DNA of 64,000 nucleotides from Pollutimonas sp. M17 (GTDB lineage Bacteria > Pseudomonadota > Gammaproteobacteria > Burkholderiales > Burkholderiaceae_B). Position 1 is the stretch's first letter. Each line of letters opens with the position of its first letter. The stretch spans positions 2,232,001-2,296,000 of the forward strand of contig NZ_CP107548.1 of assembly GCF_025836975.1 (NCBI RefSeq), in the 5' to 3' direction. Below are positions 37,187 to 60,782 of this stretch, one piece after another. The position numbers were made by a program, and so were the translations under genes. The notes under the pieces are model-generated. The model was not told where the DNA came from, ran no database searches, and saw nothing but the letters and a program-made list of their open reading frames with translations.

Positions 37187-37915
37187 ATGCAGAAAAAAAT
37201 TCCTGTTACTCCCAATTCGACGCGCTGTTCCACTTGCATGCTCAGCGAAATATGCCTGCCGCTGGGCATGCCGCGCAATGATGTCGCCAAGCTGGATGAA
37301 TTGGTCAAGGAACGCATCCGCATCCCCAAGGGGAGTGCCCTGTTCCGCCTGGGCGACAAGACCGAAGCGGTGTACGGCATCCGGTCGGGCTCCCTGAAGA
37401 CCCAGCTGGAGGATTCCTCCGGCCAGGTGCAGATCACCGGCTTCCTGCTGCCCGGCGAGATCCTGGGCATGGACGGCCTGCTGGACAACACCCATGTATC
37501 CCACGCCATCGCGCTGGAAGATACCGAAGTCTGTGTCATACGCATAGACGAAATGGACCAGCTGTCGCAGCATCTTCCAGTGCTGCAGCAACAGTTCCGG
37601 CGGCTCATGAGCAAGGAAATCAGCCGTTCGCACCATCTGATCATGGCCCTGGGCGCCCTGCGGTCCGAGCAAAGGCTGGCCGCCTTCCTGGTGAACCTGT
37701 CGCAAAGGCTGGTTGTGCTGGGCTATTCGGCCAGTGAATTCATCCTGCGCATGAGCCGCGAGGAAATCGGCAACTACCTGGGCCTGACCCTGGAGACCGT
37801 CAGCCGTCTGTTTTCCCGCTTTGCGCGGGAGGGGCTGATCCGGGTCCAGCAACGCGAGGTCCACATCCTGGACATGCGCAATCTGCAGGCGCTGGCCGGC
37901 ACCGACTGCGGCTGA
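37187..37915 (+). CDS. fnr: Fnr-type oxygen-sensing transcriptional regulator
   Basis: This 242-residue Crp/Fnr-family regulator has Cys14, Cys17, Cys23 and Cys116, spaced exactly like the four 4Fe-4S ligands of E. coli Fnr (20, 23, 29, 122). It is therefore expected to bind DNA under low oxygen and lose activity when the cluster is destroyed. The C-terminal helix-turn-helix SREEIGNYLGLTLETVSRLFSRF has the Fnr recognition pattern E-xx-SR. It lies immediately beside the cbb3 oxidase cluster (convergent) and three perfect Fnr boxes occur in this window. The Bordetella counterpart is called btr. Confidence 0.94.
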   Translation: MQKKIPVTPNSTRCSTCMLSEICLPLGMPRNDVAKLDELVKERIRIPKGSALFRLGDKTEAVYGIRSGSLKTQLEDSSGQVQITGFLLPGEILGMDGLLDNTHVSHAIALEDTEVCVIRIDEMDQLSQHLPVLQQQFRRLMSKEISRSHHLIMALGALRSEQRLAAFLVNLSQRLVVLGYSASEFILRMSREEIGNYLGLTLETVSRLFSRFAREGLIRVQQREVHILDMRNLQALAGTDCG

Positions 37916-37940: not shown

Positions 37941-38195
37941 TTATTGCTCTATGGGATCGCCGAACTCGTCGACCAGCTGGCCGCGAGGCGCCAGGTGCAG
38001 GCTCAGGGCGCTGGACAAGGCGGCCATCAGCCAGAAAAGAAAGAATCCCCCCGCATACACTTGCTGGCGAGTAGCTTCCATATAGCCGAAAAAGGCGATA
38101 TCCAGGGGATCGACCATGGCGAATACCGCTGCACTGGTGGCCGCGCCCACCAGGAACGAAGGCCATAAAATCCACATCAATGAACGCCACCGCAT
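37941..38195 (-). CDS. Small membrane protein of the cbb3 oxidase cluster
   Basis: This 84-residue protein has two predicted membrane helices (SLMWILWPSFLVGAATSAAVFA and QQVYAGGFFLFWLMAALSSAL). GGGAG-like sequence GGGAG sits 8 nt before the ATG. It is the last gene of the ccoNOQPG-fixH run, 30 bp after fixH, so it is likely cotranscribed and may help cytochrome oxidase assembly or stability. I do not recognise a characterised family; similarly sized membrane proteins often follow fixH in Burkholderiales. Its 3' end faces fnr across 25 bp. Confidence 0.75.
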   Translation of the reverse strand: MRWRSLMWILWPSFLVGAATSAAVFAMVDPLDIAFFGYMEATRQQVYAGGFFLFWLMAALSSALSLHLAPRGQLVDEFGDPIEQ

Positions 38196-38479: not shown

Positions 38480-39979
38480 TCATTTTGGCACAAAAAAGCT
38501 GGAACGCTCGACGACGGTCGTTTCGCCTTCCTCGCCATAGCTGCCCACCACGGTGAGCTCGATATCGTGCAGGCCCGCGTCGACCTTGCCGGCCGGCGCC
38601 CGTACCACGATGGGCACCAGCCGGTTCGACGCCGGATCGACGTGGACTGTGGTCGCGCCATGGTCGGCCGTCATGATGGACAGCTCGGGCAGACCGCTGG
38701 CGCCCAGGGTCAGCTCGACCGGCGACTCGGACGTGTTGATGAACTGCAGGCGATAAACGTTCTCTATCATGCCGCCCGCCACTTCGCGGCCCAGTACGCC
38801 CCGGTCGCGGATGACGTCCATGCGCAGGTTCGTGCGCGTGGCCAGCGACACCACGAAGCCAATGACGATCAACCCCAATATGAAGGAGTAAGCCAGCACC
38901 CGCGGCCGCAGCATGCGCTTGCGGACCTGGCTTTGCGTCATGCCGTCGGCGATGGCGCGCCCGGAGGTATATCGGATCAGGCCTTTGGGATAATCCATTT
39001 TTTCCATGACCTGATCACAGGCGTCGACACAGGCGCCGCAGCCTATGCACATGTATTGCAGGCCGTCGCGGATGTCGATGCCGGTGGGGCAAACCTGCAC
39101 GCACAGGCTGCAATCGACGCAGTCGCCCATGCCGGCTTCCTTGTGGTCGATGCGGCGCGAGCGTCCGCCCCTGGGCTCACCGCGCACATGGTCGTAGGTC
39201 ACCACGAAGGTGTCGTCGTCGACCATCACGCTCTGGAAGCGCGCATAGGGGCACATGTATTTGCAGACGGCTTCACGCATGAAGCCCGCGTTGCCCCAGG
39301 TCGCGAAGGCGTAGAACACCATCCAGAACCACTGCCACGGCCCCAGGGACAGGGTCAGCAGGCCCATGCCCAGTTCGCGTATGGGCGCGAAATAGCCGAT
39401 GAAGGTGGAGCCCGTCCACCAGGCGATCAGCAGCCAGACGATGTGCTTGGATGCCTTCAGGCGTATCTTGCGCCATGTCCAGGGTTGCTCGTCCAGGCGG
39501 ATGCGCGCCAGCCGGTCGCCCTCGATGCGCCGCTCGACCCACATGAAGATTTCGGTATAGACCGTTTGCGGACAGGCATAGCCGCAGAACAGGCGCCCCG
39601 CCATCGCGGTGAACAGGAACAGGGCGAAGGCCGAAACCACCAGCAGGACGGCCAGGTAGATGACGTCCTGCGGCCACAGCACCATGCCGAAGATGTAGAA
39701 CTTGCGCGCGGCCAGATCGAACAATACGGCCTGGCGGCCGTTCCATTGCAGCCAGGGCAGTCCGTAGAAGATCAATTGCGTCACGAACACCATGACGATG
39801 CGCCAGCGCGCGAAGATGCCCGACACCGAGCGCGGGTAGATCTTGCTGCGCACGTCGGACAGCGCCTTCTCGACCTGCGGAGAAGCGCCACCCCCGACCC
39901 TGGATACGCGGGGCGGCTGCCAGGCGGGCGCCGCCGCGGATGTTTGCGTGGTCGGATTGACGGGTGGTTCGCTGCTCAT
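38480..39979 (-). CDS. ccoG: Cytochrome c oxidase accessory protein CcoG
   Basis: This 499-residue membrane iron-sulfur protein (FixG/RdxA) has several transmembrane helices and two ferredoxin-type Cys clusters, CVDCSLCVQVCPTG and CIGCGACVDACDQVM. A C-terminal Ig-like FixG domain (about 380-499) ends in TTVVERSSFFVPK. In related bacteria CcoG reduces copper for delivery into the cbb3 catalytic subunit. It is placed 10 bp after ccoP, with AAAGG 7 nt before the ATG, and followed directly by fixH. The family is normally 460-500 residues, so it is complete. Confidence 0.95.
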   Translation of the reverse strand: MSSEPPVNPTTQTSAAAPAWQPPRVSRVGGGASPQVEKALSDVRSKIYPRSVSGIFARWRIVMVFVTQLIFYGLPWLQWNGRQAVLFDLAARKFYIFGMVLWPQDVIYLAVLLVVSAFALFLFTAMAGRLFCGYACPQTVYTEIFMWVERRIEGDRLARIRLDEQPWTWRKIRLKASKHIVWLLIAWWTGSTFIGYFAPIRELGMGLLTLSLGPWQWFWMVFYAFATWGNAGFMREAVCKYMCPYARFQSVMVDDDTFVVTYDHVRGEPRGGRSRRIDHKEAGMGDCVDCSLCVQVCPTGIDIRDGLQYMCIGCGACVDACDQVMEKMDYPKGLIRYTSGRAIADGMTQSQVRKRMLRPRVLAYSFILGLIVIGFVVSLATRTNLRMDVIRDRGVLGREVAGGMIENVYRLQFINTSESPVELTLGASGLPELSIMTADHGATTVHVDPASNRLVPIVVRAPAGKVDAGLHDIELTVVGSYGEEGETTVVERSSFFVPK

Positions 39980-39989
39980 GTGTGGCCTT

Positions 39990-40913
39990 TTATTTCGCTG
40001 CTGTGCTGGTTCCCTGATTGGACAAGCCCCATACCCATGCGGTAAGCATGCGGATCTGGTCCTCGGTCAGAATGCCTTCCTGCGCCGGCATGCGGTTCTC
40101 GCGTCCGTTCAGGATGGTGTCCACGATGGACGCCTCGGAGCTGCCATAGAGCCAGACATTGTCGGTCAGGTTCGGCGCACCCAGGGCGGTGTTGCCCTTG
40201 CCTTCGACGCCGTGGCAGGCGACACAGAAGGTCTCGAAGCCGCGCTTGCCCGGCACGACGCGCAGCGGATCGCTGGCCAGGCCCGACAGGGAACGCACGT
40301 ATTGGGCGATGTCGGCGGCCTCGGCCGGCTTGATGGACGACTTCCAGGCGGGCATCATGCCGTGCCGGCCCTTGGTGATGGTTTGCAGGATCTGTTCGGG
40401 CGCGCCGCCGTACAGCCAGTCGCCATCGGCCAGGTTGGGGAAGTTGCCGCTGCCCCGGGCATCCGAACCATGGCATTGCGCACAGTTGTTCAGGAACAGC
40501 CGCTGCCCGATTTCGCGGGCCTGCTCGTCGTGGGCCACCTCGGTGATCGGCATTTCCTTGTAGCGGGCGTATACCGGCCGGATCTGCTCGTTCATGGCCT
40601 CTTGCTGCGCCTTGACCTGCCTGGCCGCGGTATAGCCCAGAGTGCCCTCGTAGCTGCCCAGGCCGGGATACAGGAACAGCATGCCCAGGGCAATGACGCA
40701 CAGCCCTATGTAGAACACCGTCCACCATCGCGGCACCGGCGTGTTCAGCTCGGTCAGGTCGCCGTCCCAGACGTGTCCGGTGTCCTCGACCTGAGGCACG
40801 GTCTTCTTCAGCCAGGCGCGCTGGGTGAACAGCAGCCAAAGGCAAAAGACGATCCCGCCGATGGCGATGATGGCGATGAAGTAGCTCCAGAAGCTACTGA
40901 CGAAGTCACTCAT
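39990..40913 (-). CDS. ccoP: cbb3-type cytochrome c oxidase subunit III (diheme)
   Basis: This 307-residue membrane-anchored diheme cytochrome c carries CAQCH (Cys144-His148) and CVACH (Cys230-His234) and feeds electrons into the CcoNO core. The N-terminal anchors IAIIAIGGIVFCLWLLF and VFYIGLCVIALGMLFLY flank the DGDLTELNTPVPRWW signature of the family. The start ATG at 40913, with GGGGGC ahead, lies within the end of ccoQ (8-bp overlap). Upstream in-frame ATGs would add twelve unconserved residues. It is part of ccoNOQP. Confidence 0.96.
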   Translation of the reverse strand: MSDFVSSFWSYFIAIIAIGGIVFCLWLLFTQRAWLKKTVPQVEDTGHVWDGDLTELNTPVPRWWTVFYIGLCVIALGMLFLYPGLGSYEGTLGYTAARQVKAQQEAMNEQIRPVYARYKEMPITEVAHDEQAREIGQRLFLNNCAQCHGSDARGSGNFPNLADGDWLYGGAPEQILQTITKGRHGMMPAWKSSIKPAEAADIAQYVRSLSGLASDPLRVVPGKRGFETFCVACHGVEGKGNTALGAPNLTDNVWLYGSSEASIVDTILNGRENRMPAQEGILTEDQIRMLTAWVWGLSNQGTSTAAK

Positions 40914-41079
40914 GCGAGCCCCCTGCATTTTTATCCGTCGAGCGTTCATCGGGCATGGCGAAAGGCAGCAGCGATGCTTCCCGGTTCGCGTCGGCCCGGC
41001 CGCGTGAGTAAGCCCACCATACGATGCCCAGGAAGGTCAGCATGGCGATGATTGTTGCAATTCCATTGACGATAGCCAT
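40906..41079 (-). CDS. ccoQ: cbb3-type cytochrome c oxidase subunit CcoQ
   Basis: This is a 57-residue protein with one membrane helix: [20 protein letters not shown] followed by WWAYSRGRADANREASLLPF. The helix plus a short polar tail with a FLGIVWWAYS motif is the standard CcoQ (FixQ) pattern; CcoQ stabilises the cbb3 complex. Its ATG overlaps the ccoO stop by 1 nt (TAATG), and its own stop lies 8 nt inside ccoP, so it is translationally coupled on both sides. It is easily missed because it is so short. Confidence 0.93.
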   Translation of the reverse strand: MAIVNGIATIIAMLTFLGIVWWAYSRGRADANREASLLPFAMPDERSTDKNAGGSHE

Positions 41080-41735
41080 TACAGCGCTCCTTCGGAAACC
41101 GCCTTGGCGGCCGCCTCGCGGCCGGCCACGCCCAGGCCCTGCAGATACGCCACCAGGGCGTCCTCTTCGGTCTTGCCCTTCAACTGCTCGGGCGCCTTCT
41201 GGATCTGCTCGTCGGTATAGGGCACGCCCAGCTTGCGCAGCGCGCGCATGCGGTCCTGGACGTTCTCCTGATCGACCCGATTGTGCTGCAGCCAGGGATA
41301 GGCGGGCATGTTGGACTCTTTCACCACGTCACGCGGATTGCGCAGGTGCACGCGGTGCCAGTCGTCGGAATAGCGCTGGCCGACCCGCGCCAGGTCGGGG
41401 CCGGTGCGCTTGGAACCCCACAGGAAGGGGTAGTCGTAGGTGGATTCGCCGGCCAGCGAATAAGGGCCGTAGCGCAGCACCTCGGAGCTGAGCATGCGGA
41501 TCTGCTGCGAATGGCAGCCCACGCATCCCTCGCGTATGTAGACGTCACGGCCGATGAGGTTGAGCGGCTCGTAGGGCTGCACGCCCGGGGCCGGCGCCGT
41601 GGTCGAATGCTGGAAGAACAAGGGGACGATCTGCACCAGACCCGCGAAGGAGATCACCACGATGCTCAGGATGATCAGCAGGCCGACGTTGGTTTCGATC
41701 AGCTTGTGGGAAAAACCGGCGGTTTTCTTGGACAT
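41079..41735 (-). CDS. ccoO: cbb3-type cytochrome c oxidase subunit II (monoheme)
   Basis: This 218-residue membrane-bound cytochrome c has one N-terminal helix ([21 protein letters not shown]) and the heme motif CVGCHSQQ (Cys71-His75), with an axial Met expected near SNMPAYPWL. It starts at ATG 41735 with GAGGAGAA nearby, which is preferred over five additional upstream residues. It transfers electrons from CcoP to the CcoN heme-copper centre. It lies 11 bp after ccoN. Confidence 0.96.
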
Positions 41736-41746
41736 GCGGGTTCTCC

Positions 41747-43249
41747 TCAAGCCATGCCCGTCGTCGCCGCCGTGGCGGACGCGGGGCCGAGCAGCGCGGG
41801 ATCGACCGGATCCGGACTGCGTTTATAGACGACGGGATTCACTTTGGGCTGCCCCTTGACGGTGATCCAGGTATTCCAGGCCATCACGCCCATGCCCGAC
41901 AGGAAGCACAGGCCACCGAGCAAGCGGATGACATAGAAGGGATAGGTGGCCTTGACCGCCTCGACGAAGCTGTAGGTCAAGGTGCCGTCGGCGCCGGTGG
42001 CGCGCCACATCAGGCCCTGCATGACGCCGGCGATCCACATCGAGCTGATGTACAGGACCACGCCCAGCGTCGCCATCCAGAAGTGCAGCTCGACCAGCTT
42101 CATGCTGGCCATGGCGCTGCGCCCGTAAAGGCGGGGAATCATGTAGTAGAAGGATCCGAAGGTGATCATGGCGACCCAGCCCAGCGCGCCCGAATGCACG
42201 TGGCCCACCGTCCAGTCGGTGTAATGCGACAAGGCATTGACGGTGCGGATGGACATCATCGAGCCCTCGAAGGTGGACATGCCGTAGAAGGACAGGGCCA
42301 CGACCAGGAATTTCAGGATGGGGTCGGTGCGCAGCTTGTGCCAGGCGCCCGACAGAGTCATGATGCCGTTGATCATGCCGCCCCAGGAAGGCGCCAGCAG
42401 GATGAGCGACAGGGCCATCCCCAGCGACTGCGTCCAGTCGGGCAAGGAGGTATACAGCAGGTGATGGGGGCCCGCCCACATATAGGTGAAGGCCAGCGCC
42501 CAGAAGTGCACGATGGACAGGCGGTACGAGTAAATGGGGCGTTCGGCCTGCTTGGGCACGAAGTAGTACATCATGCCCAGGAAGCTGGTGGTCAGGAAGA
42601 AGCCCACGGCGTTATGGCCGTACCACCACTGCACCATGGCGTCCTGCACGCCGCCATAGATGGAATACGACTTCCACCATGAAACCGGCATTTCAAGATT
42701 ATTGAAAATATGCAGGACGGCGATGGTCAGGATGTAGGACCCGAAGAACCAGTTCGCCACGTAGATGTGCCGGACCCGGCGCTTGGCGATGGTGCCGAAG
42801 AACACCACGGCGTAGGTGATCCAGACCAGGGCGATCAGGATGTCCAGCGGCCATTCGAGTTCGGCGTATTCCTTGGTGCTGGTGAAGCCCATGGGCAGGG
42901 TGATGACCGCCCCCACCAATACGGCCTGCCATCCCCAGAAGGTGAAGGCGGCCAGCTTGTCGCTGAACAGCCGCACCTGACAGGTGCGCTGCACCACGTA
43001 GTAGGACGTGGCGAACAAGGCACTGCCGCCGAAGGCGAAGATCACCCCGTTCGTATGCAATGGGCGCAGACGGCCGTAGCTGAGCCACGGCGTGTTGAAA
43101 TTGAGTTCCGGCCAGATGAGTTGCGCCGCGATCAGTACCCCGACCGCCATGCCGACCACCCCCCAGACTATGGTGGCAATCGTGAATTGCCTGACGACAC
43201 CATAGTTGAAGGTTTCAGCCTGATTTCCGATAGCATCGGAAGTGCCCAT
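41747..43249 (-). CDS. ccoN: cbb3-type cytochrome c oxidase subunit I
   Basis: This 500-residue catalytic subunit of the high-affinity oxygen reductase has about 12 membrane helices and conserved heme-copper histidines ([43 protein letters not shown]). It reduces oxygen to water and pumps protons at low oxygen. It is the first structural gene of ccoNOQPG and follows a perfect Fnr box at 43316-43329, so induction under oxygen limitation is expected. Length and helices match the family. Confidence 0.97.
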
Positions 43250-43315: not shown

Positions 43316-43329
43316 TTTGATCTGCATCA
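43316..43329 (-). promoter_or_regulatory. Perfect Fnr box upstream of ccoN
   Basis: TTGAT-CTGC-ATCAA is a perfect match to the Fnr/Anr consensus. It is centred 73 bp before the ccoN ATG. A site at -41.5 would put the transcription start near 43281, with CATCAT at about 43287-43292 as a plausible -10. It is 79 bp past the ccoS stop. Confidence 0.85.
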
Positions 43330-43407
43330 AGATGGACCCAGTCGTCTTGCCGCTGACGTTTCCGCACCACACTTTGGATAACATTCCTACCGACACACCG
43401 ATTCCAG

Positions 43408-43587
43408 CTAGGTGTTCTTTTCGCCCGCCCGCTGACCTTCGGGACTGTCGTCGTCCAGGAGGATGGCTTGCGCCGCCTCGTTGGCATCGTCGAACTGGCC
43501 GGCAAAAATGGCCCACCAGAAAGCGGCCCCGATGGCGATCACCGCCAGAAGCGAGATCGGCAGCAGCAGAAACAGAGAGGCTTCCAC
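43408..43587 (-). CDS. ccoS: cbb3-type cytochrome oxidase assembly protein CcoS
   Basis: This 59-residue protein starts at GTG 43587 (VEASLFLLLPISLLAVIAIG). Its single helix and the AAFWWAIFAGQFDD motif, followed by an acidic tail, define CcoS, which is needed for cofactor insertion into the cbb3 oxidase. No ATG exists at a suitable place. It lies 3 nt downstream of the P-type ATPase-like gene and upstream of ccoN, the standard ccoI-ccoS-ccoN order. It is too short to be picked out by a length cutoff. Confidence 0.9.
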   Translation of the reverse strand: MEASLFLLLPISLLAVIAIGAAFWWAIFAGQFDDANEAAQAILLDDDSPEGQRAGEKNT

Positions 43588-43590
43588 GGT

Positions 43591-44559
43591 TCAGCCTTCC
43601 ATGGCCGCGCCCTGCCAGGCGACGGTCGGCGCCTGGCGGGTCTGCCGCCGGAACAGGCGCCAGGAGTTTGCCGCCACCGCCAGCGAGGACAGCAGCATGC
43701 TGATGGCCGCCAGCCAGGGGGCCACCCACCCCGCCGCGGCCAGGGGCACCATCAAAAGATGCCAGGCCACGGAGCCGTACAGGTTCTGCCGCGCAACCCG
43801 TCCCGCCGCCTGGATCAGGCGCAGCACCTCGTCCTCGCTGCGGGCGGGTACGGCGGAAAGGCCGGCATGCGCCGCGGCCACGGCCGTGGGTACGGACATC
43901 GCCATGGCGCAAGGGCAGCTCATGACCAGCAGGGCCACCATGACGCCAATGGCGTGCTGGGGCGCATACACATACCAGGCCGCGCCGACAATGAAGGCCA
44001 GGGCCACCTGCACGGCCACGAACCAGAAAGCCAATTGATTGGCGCGGCCGGACACCGCGGCGCTGAACTGTTCAATCAGGCGATGGGCTTCGCCCCCGTC
44101 CACCGATTGGCGCGCGCAAAGCTCCAGATAGCGGGCCGTCAGCAGAAAAGCCACGAACATCGTGACGGAATCGAAATAGATCTCGCCGTGGCCCGTCCAG
44201 GTGGCGTGGGCGCTGGGAATGAAGGCGGCGACGATGCCCAGGGCGACCGGAACATCCATGCCGACGCGTCCGCGCAGCAGTTGGCGGCTTGCGCCGCCCC
44301 ACACCGGCCAGGCGCAATACAGCATGACGGGAACCGTCAGCACCAGGCTGATCCAGTTCATCATGAATATGGCCTGGTCGAGCAATTGCAGATTGTCCGG
44401 CGCCATGCTTTCAGAGCGCAGATAGCCCGGAAAGGCGAACATCATCACCTGCATCATGGCCAGCCATCCCAGGCCCAGGCGGGCAAGCATATGGCGGCGC
44501 TTTTGCCGATCATCGCCGGAAAGGCCGTTGGGGGTGGAGAAAATGGAAAAGGCGCGCAT
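43591..44559 (-). CDS. Domain-stripped P1B-ATPase-like protein in the ccoI position
   Basis: This 322-residue protein retains the membrane part of a copper P-type ATPase: about eight helices including VALLVMSCPCAMAMS, with the metal-binding Cys-Pro-Cys at 215-217. Between helices 4 and 5 there is no actuator domain with TGE. After helix 6 the phosphorylation and nucleotide domains (DKTGT, TGD, GDGxND) are missing, and the sequence passes straight from AVAAAHAGLSAVPARS to the last two helices. The reading frame is clean, so this looks like a settled reduction and not a recent wreck. CcoI normally supplies copper to cbb3 oxidase; this form cannot hydrolyse ATP. Confidence 0.85.
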   Translation of the reverse strand: MRAFSIFSTPNGLSGDDRQKRRHMLARLGLGWLAMMQVMMFAFPGYLRSESMAPDNLQLLDQAIFMMNWISLVLTVPVMLYCAWPVWGGASRQLLRGRVGMDVPVALGIVAAFIPSAHATWTGHGEIYFDSVTMFVAFLLTARYLELCARQSVDGGEAHRLIEQFSAAVSGRANQLAFWFVAVQVALAFIVGAAWYVYAPQHAIGVMVALLVMSCPCAMAMSVPTAVAAAHAGLSAVPARSEDEVLRLIQAAGRVARQNLYGSVAWHLLMVPLAAAGWVAPWLAAISMLLSSLAVAANSWRLFRRQTRQAPTVAWQGAAMEG

Positions 44560-47212: not shown

Positions 47213-48520
47213 TCAAGCGCGCGCGGTGGCGGCGGCGTGAGCAATGCTGCGGCCGGCCGCCTTGGCAACCATCACGGCCAGCACCGCCGCCACCACGAAG
47301 CCCGTGGCGGCTCCGAACCACGGCCCCTGGCTGAAACCGGCGTCCAGCATCAGGCCGAAGCCCACCGGCGCCAGCGACGAGCCTACGTCCATGCCGGAAT
47401 ACACCAGGCCATAGACAGTCCCCGTGGCGCCCTTGGGCGTGACCCGCCGTATGAGCATGTCGCGCGAGGGGGCAGAAACGCCCGAGCAGAAACCCGCCAT
47501 GGCCACCAACACCATGGCGAAGGACGAGGGGACCGAGCCCATGGCCAGCACGACCAGCAGGCCTCCGGCCAGCAGCAGCGAAATGGCCACGGTGCGTTCC
47601 GTATTGGGCGTGGCGCCCACCAGGAAGCCGCCCGCCAGCATGCCCGCGGCCGCGGCGATCATATAGGCGGACAAGGTGGTGCCTGCCATGACCTTGTCGA
47701 TGCCGTAGACATCGCCCAGCATGGGTATGGTGTAGTTCTGTACGGCCGACAGAGCCATGGACGTAAAGGCGAAGAACAGGAAAGCGCCCCACAGCGCCGG
47801 CTGCACCAGCAAGGTGGCCAGGGTCCGGCCCACGGTTTGCTGCGCCAGATCGGGCGCGGCGTCGCCCGCCGAGGGGTCGGCAGCCACGGCCTGCTCGAGT
47901 TCGACCGCCGCGTTGCGGCCGGCCAGCAGATCGCGCCCCAGCCAGGTCAGCAGCAGGACGAAAGCGACCAGGGCCGCCGCCGCGAAGGCGGCCACCCGCC
48001 AATTCGACACATAGATGATGCCGGCCATGAAAACCGGGGTCAGGGCCCAGCCCAGGTTCCCGGTCAGGCCGTGCGTGCTGAAGGCGTGGCCCAGCCGACG
48101 CTGGCTGACGCGATGATTGATGATGGAGTAGTCCACGGGATGGAAGACCGAGTTTCCAAGCCCGCCGATGACGGCCGCCAGGACCAGCATGGCGTATCCG
48201 TTGGAGGCCGCGATGAGGATGCCCGAGACGACGAAGCTGGCCAGGCCGAAGCGCAGCACCGGCGCCGGGCCGATGCGGTCGACCACGAACCCGGACGAAG
48301 CCTGCCCCAGGCAGGACACCAGGAAGAACACCGAGGCCAGCATGCCCAGCTTGACGAAATCGTAGCCATACTCGTGCGCCAGCGACAAATACAGCGTGGG
48401 AAAGACCAGCTGGAAGAAGTGGGACGAGGCGTGCGCCGAGGCGATCAGGCCGATGATGGTCCAATCGCGGCGCTTAAGGGCCGGCGTATCCGGAATTTGA
48501 GCGAGGCTTGCGGCGGTCAT
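47213..48520 (-). CDS. MFS transporter
   Basis: This 435-residue major-facilitator carrier has twelve predicted helices split by a central cytoplasmic loop of about 45 residues (residues 205-245, rich in Ala and acidic residues). The segment GFVVDRIGPAPVLRFG is the usual loop 2-3 motif. VTPKGATGTVYGLVYSGMDVGSSLAPVGFG in the second half resembles sugar-phosphate and drug efflux members. Substrate unknown. It is on the same strand as pgsA and 22 bp from it, so readthrough from the uvrC-pgsA unit is possible. Confidence 0.88.
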   Translation of the reverse strand: MTAASLAQIPDTPALKRRDWTIIGLIASAHASSHFFQLVFPTLYLSLAHEYGYDFVKLGMLASVFFLVSCLGQASSGFVVDRIGPAPVLRFGLASFVVSGILIAASNGYAMLVLAAVIGGLGNSVFHPVDYSIINHRVSQRRLGHAFSTHGLTGNLGWALTPVFMAGIIYVSNWRVAAFAAAALVAFVLLLTWLGRDLLAGRNAAVELEQAVAADPSAGDAAPDLAQQTVGRTLATLLVQPALWGAFLFFAFTSMALSAVQNYTIPMLGDVYGIDKVMAGTTLSAYMIAAAAGMLAGGFLVGATPNTERTVAISLLLAGGLLVVLAMGSVPSSFAMVLVAMAGFCSGVSAPSRDMLIRRVTPKGATGTVYGLVYSGMDVGSSLAPVGFGLMLDAGFSQGPWFGAATGFVVAAVLAVMVAKAAGRSIAHAAATARA

Positions 48521-60768: not shown

Positions 60769-60782
60769 TTGATGTCAATCAA
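60769..60782 (-). promoter_or_regulatory. Perfect Fnr box in the paaA-paaX intergenic region
   Basis: TTGAT-GTCA-ATCAA is centred about 67 bp upstream of paaA and 75 bp upstream of paaX. On the minus strand, TTTGAT (60783-60778) and TATTAA (60760-60755), spaced 17 nt, form a possible paaA promoter whose -35 lies inside the box, which would fit repression. If instead the box is at -41.5, activation would start near 60734. A -10-like TATAAG at 60816-60821 faces paaX. Confidence 0.8.

Follow-up and report, generated by a model that had tools for sequence, protein, structure and literature searches.

A CcoI copper ATPase reduced to its membrane core in the cbb3 oxidase cluster of Pollutimonas and related bacteria: a candidate ATP-independent Cu(I) relay

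Results

The cco cluster and its short ccoI gene

The window analysed here is a stretch of 64,000 nucleotides from Pollutimonas sp. M17 (assembly GCF_025836975.1, contig NZ_CP107548.1, positions 2,232,001 to 2,296,000), and contains a cbb3 oxidase (cco) gene cluster in which the ccoI position is occupied by a short gene (Table 1). The open reading frame is intact and begins with ATG. The sole Pfam match of its product is to the C-terminal edge of E1-E2_ATPase (residues 169-232; model positions 111-176 of 181), and NCBIfam returned scattered pieces of Cu-ATPase models with scores far under the cut-offs. An AlphaFold2 model built with 60 homologues (pLDDT 84, pTM 0.79) has helices that fit MA to M6 with a break at CPC; the top ten Foldseek matches to this model were all Cu P1B ATPases (best E 2.2e-5, TM-score 0.42-0.57 by query length), and a profile search of PDB sequences gave 6e-25. 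The protein thus has the P1B membrane-domain fold (MA, MB, M1-M6). A preliminary description, made from the letters of this DNA and a list of its open reading frames, had called the gene a copper ATPase cut down to its membrane domain, lying in the ccoI position behind an Fnr promoter and beside ccoS and ccoN; the reading frame, the Pfam and NCBIfam results and an alignment against 59 full-length CcoIs bear this out, as do the FNR box and the adjoining genes.

Table 1. Features of the cco cluster, with positions counted from the first letter of the window and motif counts taken from an alignment of 89 short and 59 full-length proteins.
Feature	Position	Strand	Evidence and remarks
FNR box TTGATATTAATCAA	44595..44608	.	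upstream of short ccoI
Short ccoI	43591..44559	-	CcoI-type P1B-1 ATPase membrane core, 322 aa, 8 predicted membrane helices; ORF, Pfam/NCBIfam, AlphaFold2, Foldseek
Short N-terminus, aa 1-18	44506..44559	-	replaces N-terminal metal-binding domains of full-length CcoI
M2-M3 loop, ~aa 152-171	44047..44106	-	actuator domain missing here
CPC, C215-P216-C217 in M4	43909..43917	-	both Cys 89/89 short, 59/59 full-length; CPC also used to pick ORFs
M4-M5 loop, ~aa 232-254	43798..43866	-	P and N domains missing here
W266-H267 in M5	43759..43764	-	at Tyr-Asn place of copper pumps; His 89/89 short, Asn 59/59 full-length; Trp 85 and Phe 4 short, Tyr 58/59 full-length
MXXXS of M6, M288 to S292	43684..43698	-	Met 89/89 short; Ser 87, Thr 2
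ccoS	43408..43587	-	PF03597 7.8e-15; TIGR00847 1.4e-13
Second FNR box	43317..43330	.	upstream of ccoN
ccoN	41747..43249	-	TIGR00780 1.6e-227
ccoO	41079..41735	-	ORF; position and sequence; syntenic in named loci
ccoQ	40906..41079	-	ORF; by position; no Pfam/NCBIfam match
ccoP	39990..40949	-	TIGR00782 3.7e-75
ccoG	38480..39979	-	TIGR02745 2.4e-153
ccoH, shortened to ~78 aa	38226..38462	-	PF05751 FixH, positions 1-37 of 150 only; lengths in relatives
Small predicted membrane protein after ccoH	37941..38195	-	no Pfam match; in most related clusters (tblastn relatives)
Crp/Fnr-family regulator adjoining cluster	37187..37915	+	PF13545, PF00027, PF00325

The boxes upstream of ccoI and ccoN match TTGATNNNNATCAA perfectly; three perfect FNR sites occur in the window where 0.03 would be expected by chance, the third of them at 60769-60782, away from the boxes of the cco cluster. 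An FNR-like box lies no more than 250 nt upstream of 80 of the 89 short genes. The order ccoI-S-N-O-Q-P is kept in all 51 named loci, as far as their contigs reach, and full-length relatives carry ccoI in the same slot, before ccoS-ccoN.

Several neighbouring genes merit description in their own right. CcoH is about 64-116 aa long in the family to which the window's genome belongs (L071-L121, L180-L184), compared with 159-177 aa in several other Betaproteobacteria. A coupling between the loss of its periplasmic part and the change in ccoI was considered and discarded: CcoH is already short in L180-L184, relatives whose CcoI is full-length, so that the shortening predates the ccoI change or is independent of it. 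The small predicted membrane protein 3' of ccoH is possibly an unrecognised cbb3 assembly gene. CcoN has five clade-specific positions, none an obvious copper ligand, among which K335 to R is the clearest: Arg is present in 50/50 short-form clusters and Lys in 34/34 clusters with full-length CcoI. An MFS gene at 47213-48520 looked, from its sequence, Fsr-like rather than CcoA-like.

Three cytosolic regions are missing

We aligned the 89 short proteins with the 59 full-length CcoIs. The N-terminus before R27 has a median length of 26 aa in the short proteins and 194 aa in the full-length ones, the M2-M3 loop, which holds the actuator (A) domain, 33 and 139 aa, and the M4-M5 loop, which holds the P and N domains, 33 and 281 aa. 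DKTGT and GDGxND are found in 0/89 short and 59/59 full-length proteins, although the full-length set was selected by these motifs and the short set by the absence of DKTGT, so that the informative measures of domain loss are the loop lengths. N-terminal CxxC metal-binding sites occur in 56/59 full-length proteins and 0/89 short ones. Domain loss had been described beforehand at two places, and both losses are seen; the disappearance of a third region, the N-terminal metal-binding domains, had been overlooked.

The phosphorylated aspartate and the actuator domain are defining features of P-type ATPases. The short CcoI has neither DKTGT with its P domain, nor a nucleotide-binding domain, nor an actuator with TGE, the E1-E2_ATPase model being matched in its last third only. 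With the A, P and N domains absent, the use of ATP by the known mechanism is impossible for this protein, and ATP-driven Cu(I) transport is not expected of a sequence lacking the catalytic domains.

The copper path is kept and its switch is changed

The residues that line the copper path survive almost throughout. Position 130 is acidic (D or E) in 89/89 short forms and E146, which we take to be the cytosolic entry Glu, is present in 84/89, the roles of E146 and D130 being assumed partly from what is known of LpCopA; M134 and the MA methionines are also retained, almost without exception. The CPC metal site, the retention of which had been claimed in the preliminary description, is present in 89/89 short forms (CPC itself having served to pick ORFs), as is MXXXS in M6 with the substitutions given in Table 1; of the P1B-1 signatures only the YN of M5 is lacking, its place being taken by Trp/Phe-His. 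This exchange, which had escaped the preliminary description, lies in an ungapped part of the alignment, where the spacing from RQNL to PLAA is 11 residues in short and full-length proteins. W32, N68, W87 and Q184 are likewise fixed or nearly fixed in the short forms, and rare or absent in the full-length ones. The entry Met of M1, M101, is invariant (89/89); it and the exit path along the Met residues of MA, M2 and M6 were assigned after the work on HMA4, in which Cu exits along these residues and the Tyr-Asn pair, together with the Ser of MXXXS, positions and switches the CPC cysteines (PMC10973460). Elsewhere the Tyr is assigned to TM-MBS1 and the Asn to TM-MBS2 (PMC7558416). Short CcoI thus retains the sulfur ligands and has exchanged the switch, whereby the His may serve as an additional ligand of Cu(I). 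Conservation of the copper path is strict enough, we argue, for Cu(I) binding to remain the point of the protein.

Distribution, origin and selection

By hand counts from the result tables, 163 of the 250 genomes analysed in the family carry an intact short form; they span most of its 43 genera, including Achromobacter, Bordetella, Taylorella, Pelistega, Oligella, Advenella, Castellaniella, Pusillimonas and Zwartia, and ccoN accompanies the short form in all 163, clean in 161, interrupted by the end of a contig in G097 and with a frameshift in G188. A further 26 genomes of the family pass the ccoN search: matches fitting full-length CcoI were obtained in 19, the short gene is split in G091, and two others hold partial copies; in four, the assemblies of which are fragmented or incomplete, no ccoI was found. 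Fourteen full-length CcoI loci of the family read as complete ORFs. Among the matches listed for the order (about 390 genomes) and the class (369 genomes), no short form was found outside the family; these were full-length CcoI only, with the exception of shorter frames whose match was confined to a single model segment, as a truncated or disrupted full-length gene would give. A locus with all domains present had been named beforehand as a case that would speak against the reduction if seen in the same species; such loci are confined to other genera of the family and to a single genome from a mixed genus.

In a tree of the CcoI core, 55/55 short forms make up a single branch (SH-aLRT 99.8) that lies within the full-length CcoIs, and among the nearest sequences are the family's own full-length L180-L183, from one genus, and L184. 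The CcoN tree recovers the same single clade with support of 98; the exact sister group is unsure, because both trees used a quick search and contain some long branches. Both descent in one clade and the gene's location beside ccoS and ccoN in the cco cluster mark the short protein as belonging with CcoI/FixI by orthology, as distinct from activity. Read from these sequences, the simplest history would be one loss of the cytosolic parts followed by vertical inheritance. In G025, from a genus otherwise of the short form, the same slot holds a full-length CcoI that evolves fast (L184), which may represent retention or replacement by transfer.

Across 13 closely related short-form pairs, dN/dS is 0.05-0.29, as under purifying selection; together with 163 intact copies this is not the pattern of a pseudogene. 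Misassembly was rejected as an explanation, the same short gene being found in 163 genomes and across most genera of the family. The earlier suggestion that the gene does not look like the product of random decay is supported by the single origin, the strict purifying selection, the conserved FNR box, the fixed position and the presence of ccoN in 163/163 short-form genomes. In G091 (L192, 7590-13114) an insertion that codes for an IS481-like transposase divides the short ccoI, and both ccoN and ccoP carry frameshifts, which indicates that the cbb3 cluster there decays as a unit; from the type of insertion sequence this genome is presumably Bordetella pertussis.

Copper pumps elsewhere in the genomes

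Only two DKTGT genes are present in the window's genome, and both encode complete ATPases: a CopA of 762 aa, after which comes a CueR-like gene, and a 653-aa pump resembling ZntA. A genome search found no second full-length ccoI, and the DKTGT search no orphan gene for P and N domains, in the window's genome. A split gene with its ATPase domains encoded elsewhere was consequently rejected, and the earlier proposal that short CcoI partners such domains is unsupported in its simple form. A complete Cu-ATPase was found in 39/39 genomes tested, including 36/36 with the short form and genomes of 1.6-1.7 Mb, and SCO/SenC in 11/11 genomes tested. CopA could therefore supply pumping, although its presence is weak evidence because CopA is so widespread.

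Discussion

The short CcoI is, by its descent in sequence trees, an orthologue of CcoI, yet it lacks the features by which P-type ATPases are defined. A literature search, with most subscription journals outside its scope, found no published description of it. With CcoI/FixI (CopA2-type P1B-1 ATPases such as that of Rhodobacter capsulatus), inside whose tree it is nested, it shares the membrane domain, the MMQVMM stretch of MA, CPC, MXXXS and the place in the cco cluster; it differs in having no N-terminal metal-binding, A, P or N domains, in the change of Tyr-Asn to Trp/Phe-His in M5 and in having no known mechanism for ATP hydrolysis. The membrane-domain fold is also like that of CopA (CopA1-type exporters; Foldseek matches 4bbj, 7r0g and 3rfu, and also HMA4 and ATP7B), but CopA is a complete detoxification pump, whereas short CcoI is the membrane part only and lies in an oxidase cluster. 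The role that we propose, ATP-independent hand-over of Cu(I) to the oxidase, resembles that of the SenC/Sco1 and PCuAC chaperones; these are unrelated soluble or single-helix proteins, encoded by separate genes in the same genomes (SCO alone was examined). CcoA, an MFS importer, is likewise a membrane protein moving copper for cbb3, but has an unrelated fold and brings copper into the cytosol.

We propose that short CcoI, derived once from CcoI, works as a Cu(I) relay embedded in the membrane that serves cbb3 assembly without ATP, and regard this proposal as evenly poised between right and wrong. In the ancestor of most Alcaligenaceae, ccoI would have lost the N-terminal metal-binding domains, which pick up cytosolic copper, and the A, P and N domains, which serve ATP coupling, while the sulfur path was kept (M101 of M1, CPC 215-217, M288 of M6 and the methionines of MA and M2). 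Trp/Phe-His would have taken the place of the Tyr-Asn switch, probably creating a Cu(I) site of Cys/Cys/Met/His type. The protein would then bind Cu(I) within the membrane, keep it next to apo-CcoN and pass it to the CuB site, directly or with SenC as a partner; it would do no transport work itself, uphill export from the cytosol being left to the CopA retained in the short-form genomes tested. Because the parts that use ATP are lost and the copper-binding path is kept, short CcoI probably hands copper on without pumping.

The precedent from R. capsulatus cuts both ways. There, CPC mutants of CcoI make no cbb3 and CcoI works with SenC (PMC8475189); assembly needs ATP-driven Cu(I) pumping by CcoI, and added copper does not rescue the loss of ccoI (PMC8475189, PMC7558416), so that a CcoI without pumping is unexpected, which counts against a relay. 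The retained M101 (89/89) and E146 (84/89) would also suit copper supplied from the cytosol better than copper from the periplasm. Cu(I) is, however, bound far more tightly by CopZ (Kd ~6e-22 M) than by SenC (~3e-15 M) (PMC7558416), and a protein that does not pump could not pull cytosolic copper outward against this difference, which favours a relay fed by CopA or by periplasmic chaperones.

The same affinities weigh on the possibility that the membrane domain is a passive channel, conducting Cu(I) down its gradient with chaperones on either side setting the direction, since they allow no unaided outward flow of copper. Residues of the entry (M101, E146), the centre (CPC, M288) and the exit (D130, M134) are all kept, and the sequence facts that suit a relay suit a channel equally; general knowledge of P-type pumps adds that removal of the A and P domains takes away the known gating machinery. 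An ungated copper leak would nonetheless be costly, and a His instead of Asn at the site points to copper being held more than let through, so that we consider a channel unlikely. Short CcoI might instead be a docking or exit subunit in a complex with CopA, the latter supplying copper by ATP-driven transport. CopA is complete in the window's genome, where it is one of only two DKTGT genes, and a complete Cu-ATPase accompanies every short form tested; but nearly all bacteria have a CopA, which makes its presence poor evidence, and copA is unlinked to the cco cluster; we regard a dedicated complex as unlikely too. That short CcoI serves purely to scaffold CcoN assembly, without handling copper, would be in keeping with a gene adjoining ccoS and ccoN, but is improbable when the copper-site residues CPC (also used to pick ORFs), M288 and H267, all 89/89, are among the most conserved. 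A decaying remnant or an assembly error, suggested by the absence of most of a normally essential enzyme and by the IS481-like insertion in G091, is already refuted by 163 genomes of the family, 51 named loci, the dN/dS values and a single old origin, and in G091 the frameshifts in ccoN and ccoP point to the whole cluster decaying as a unit.

The interpretation in the preliminary description, of a channel, a scaffold or a partner for ATPase domains elsewhere, is thus partly supported, and its sequence-based checks are answered: among the matches listed in a survey of Burkholderiales the short form is confined to one family, and the genome holds no second ccoI and a complete CopA. Returning to the relay, its broader form is that a P-type ATPase has turned into an ATP-independent metallochaperone, a bare pump core with a rebuilt Cys/Cys/Met/His site that places copper into cbb3 across most of the family; this we put forward tentatively, as falling a little short of even. 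Here a clade-wide, selected descendant separates the copper-binding membrane path from ATP coupling, and the exchange of Tyr-Asn for Trp-His offers a two-residue handle for studying how pumps switch their copper site. If the proposal is true, cbb3 assembly in these organisms needs no ATP-driven export by CcoI, which is held to be obligatory elsewhere. The bacteria affected, which include Achromobacter, Bordetella and Taylorella, seem to manage without a CcoI pump, and would provide a natural test of why copper for cbb3 must pass through the cytosol and CcoI.
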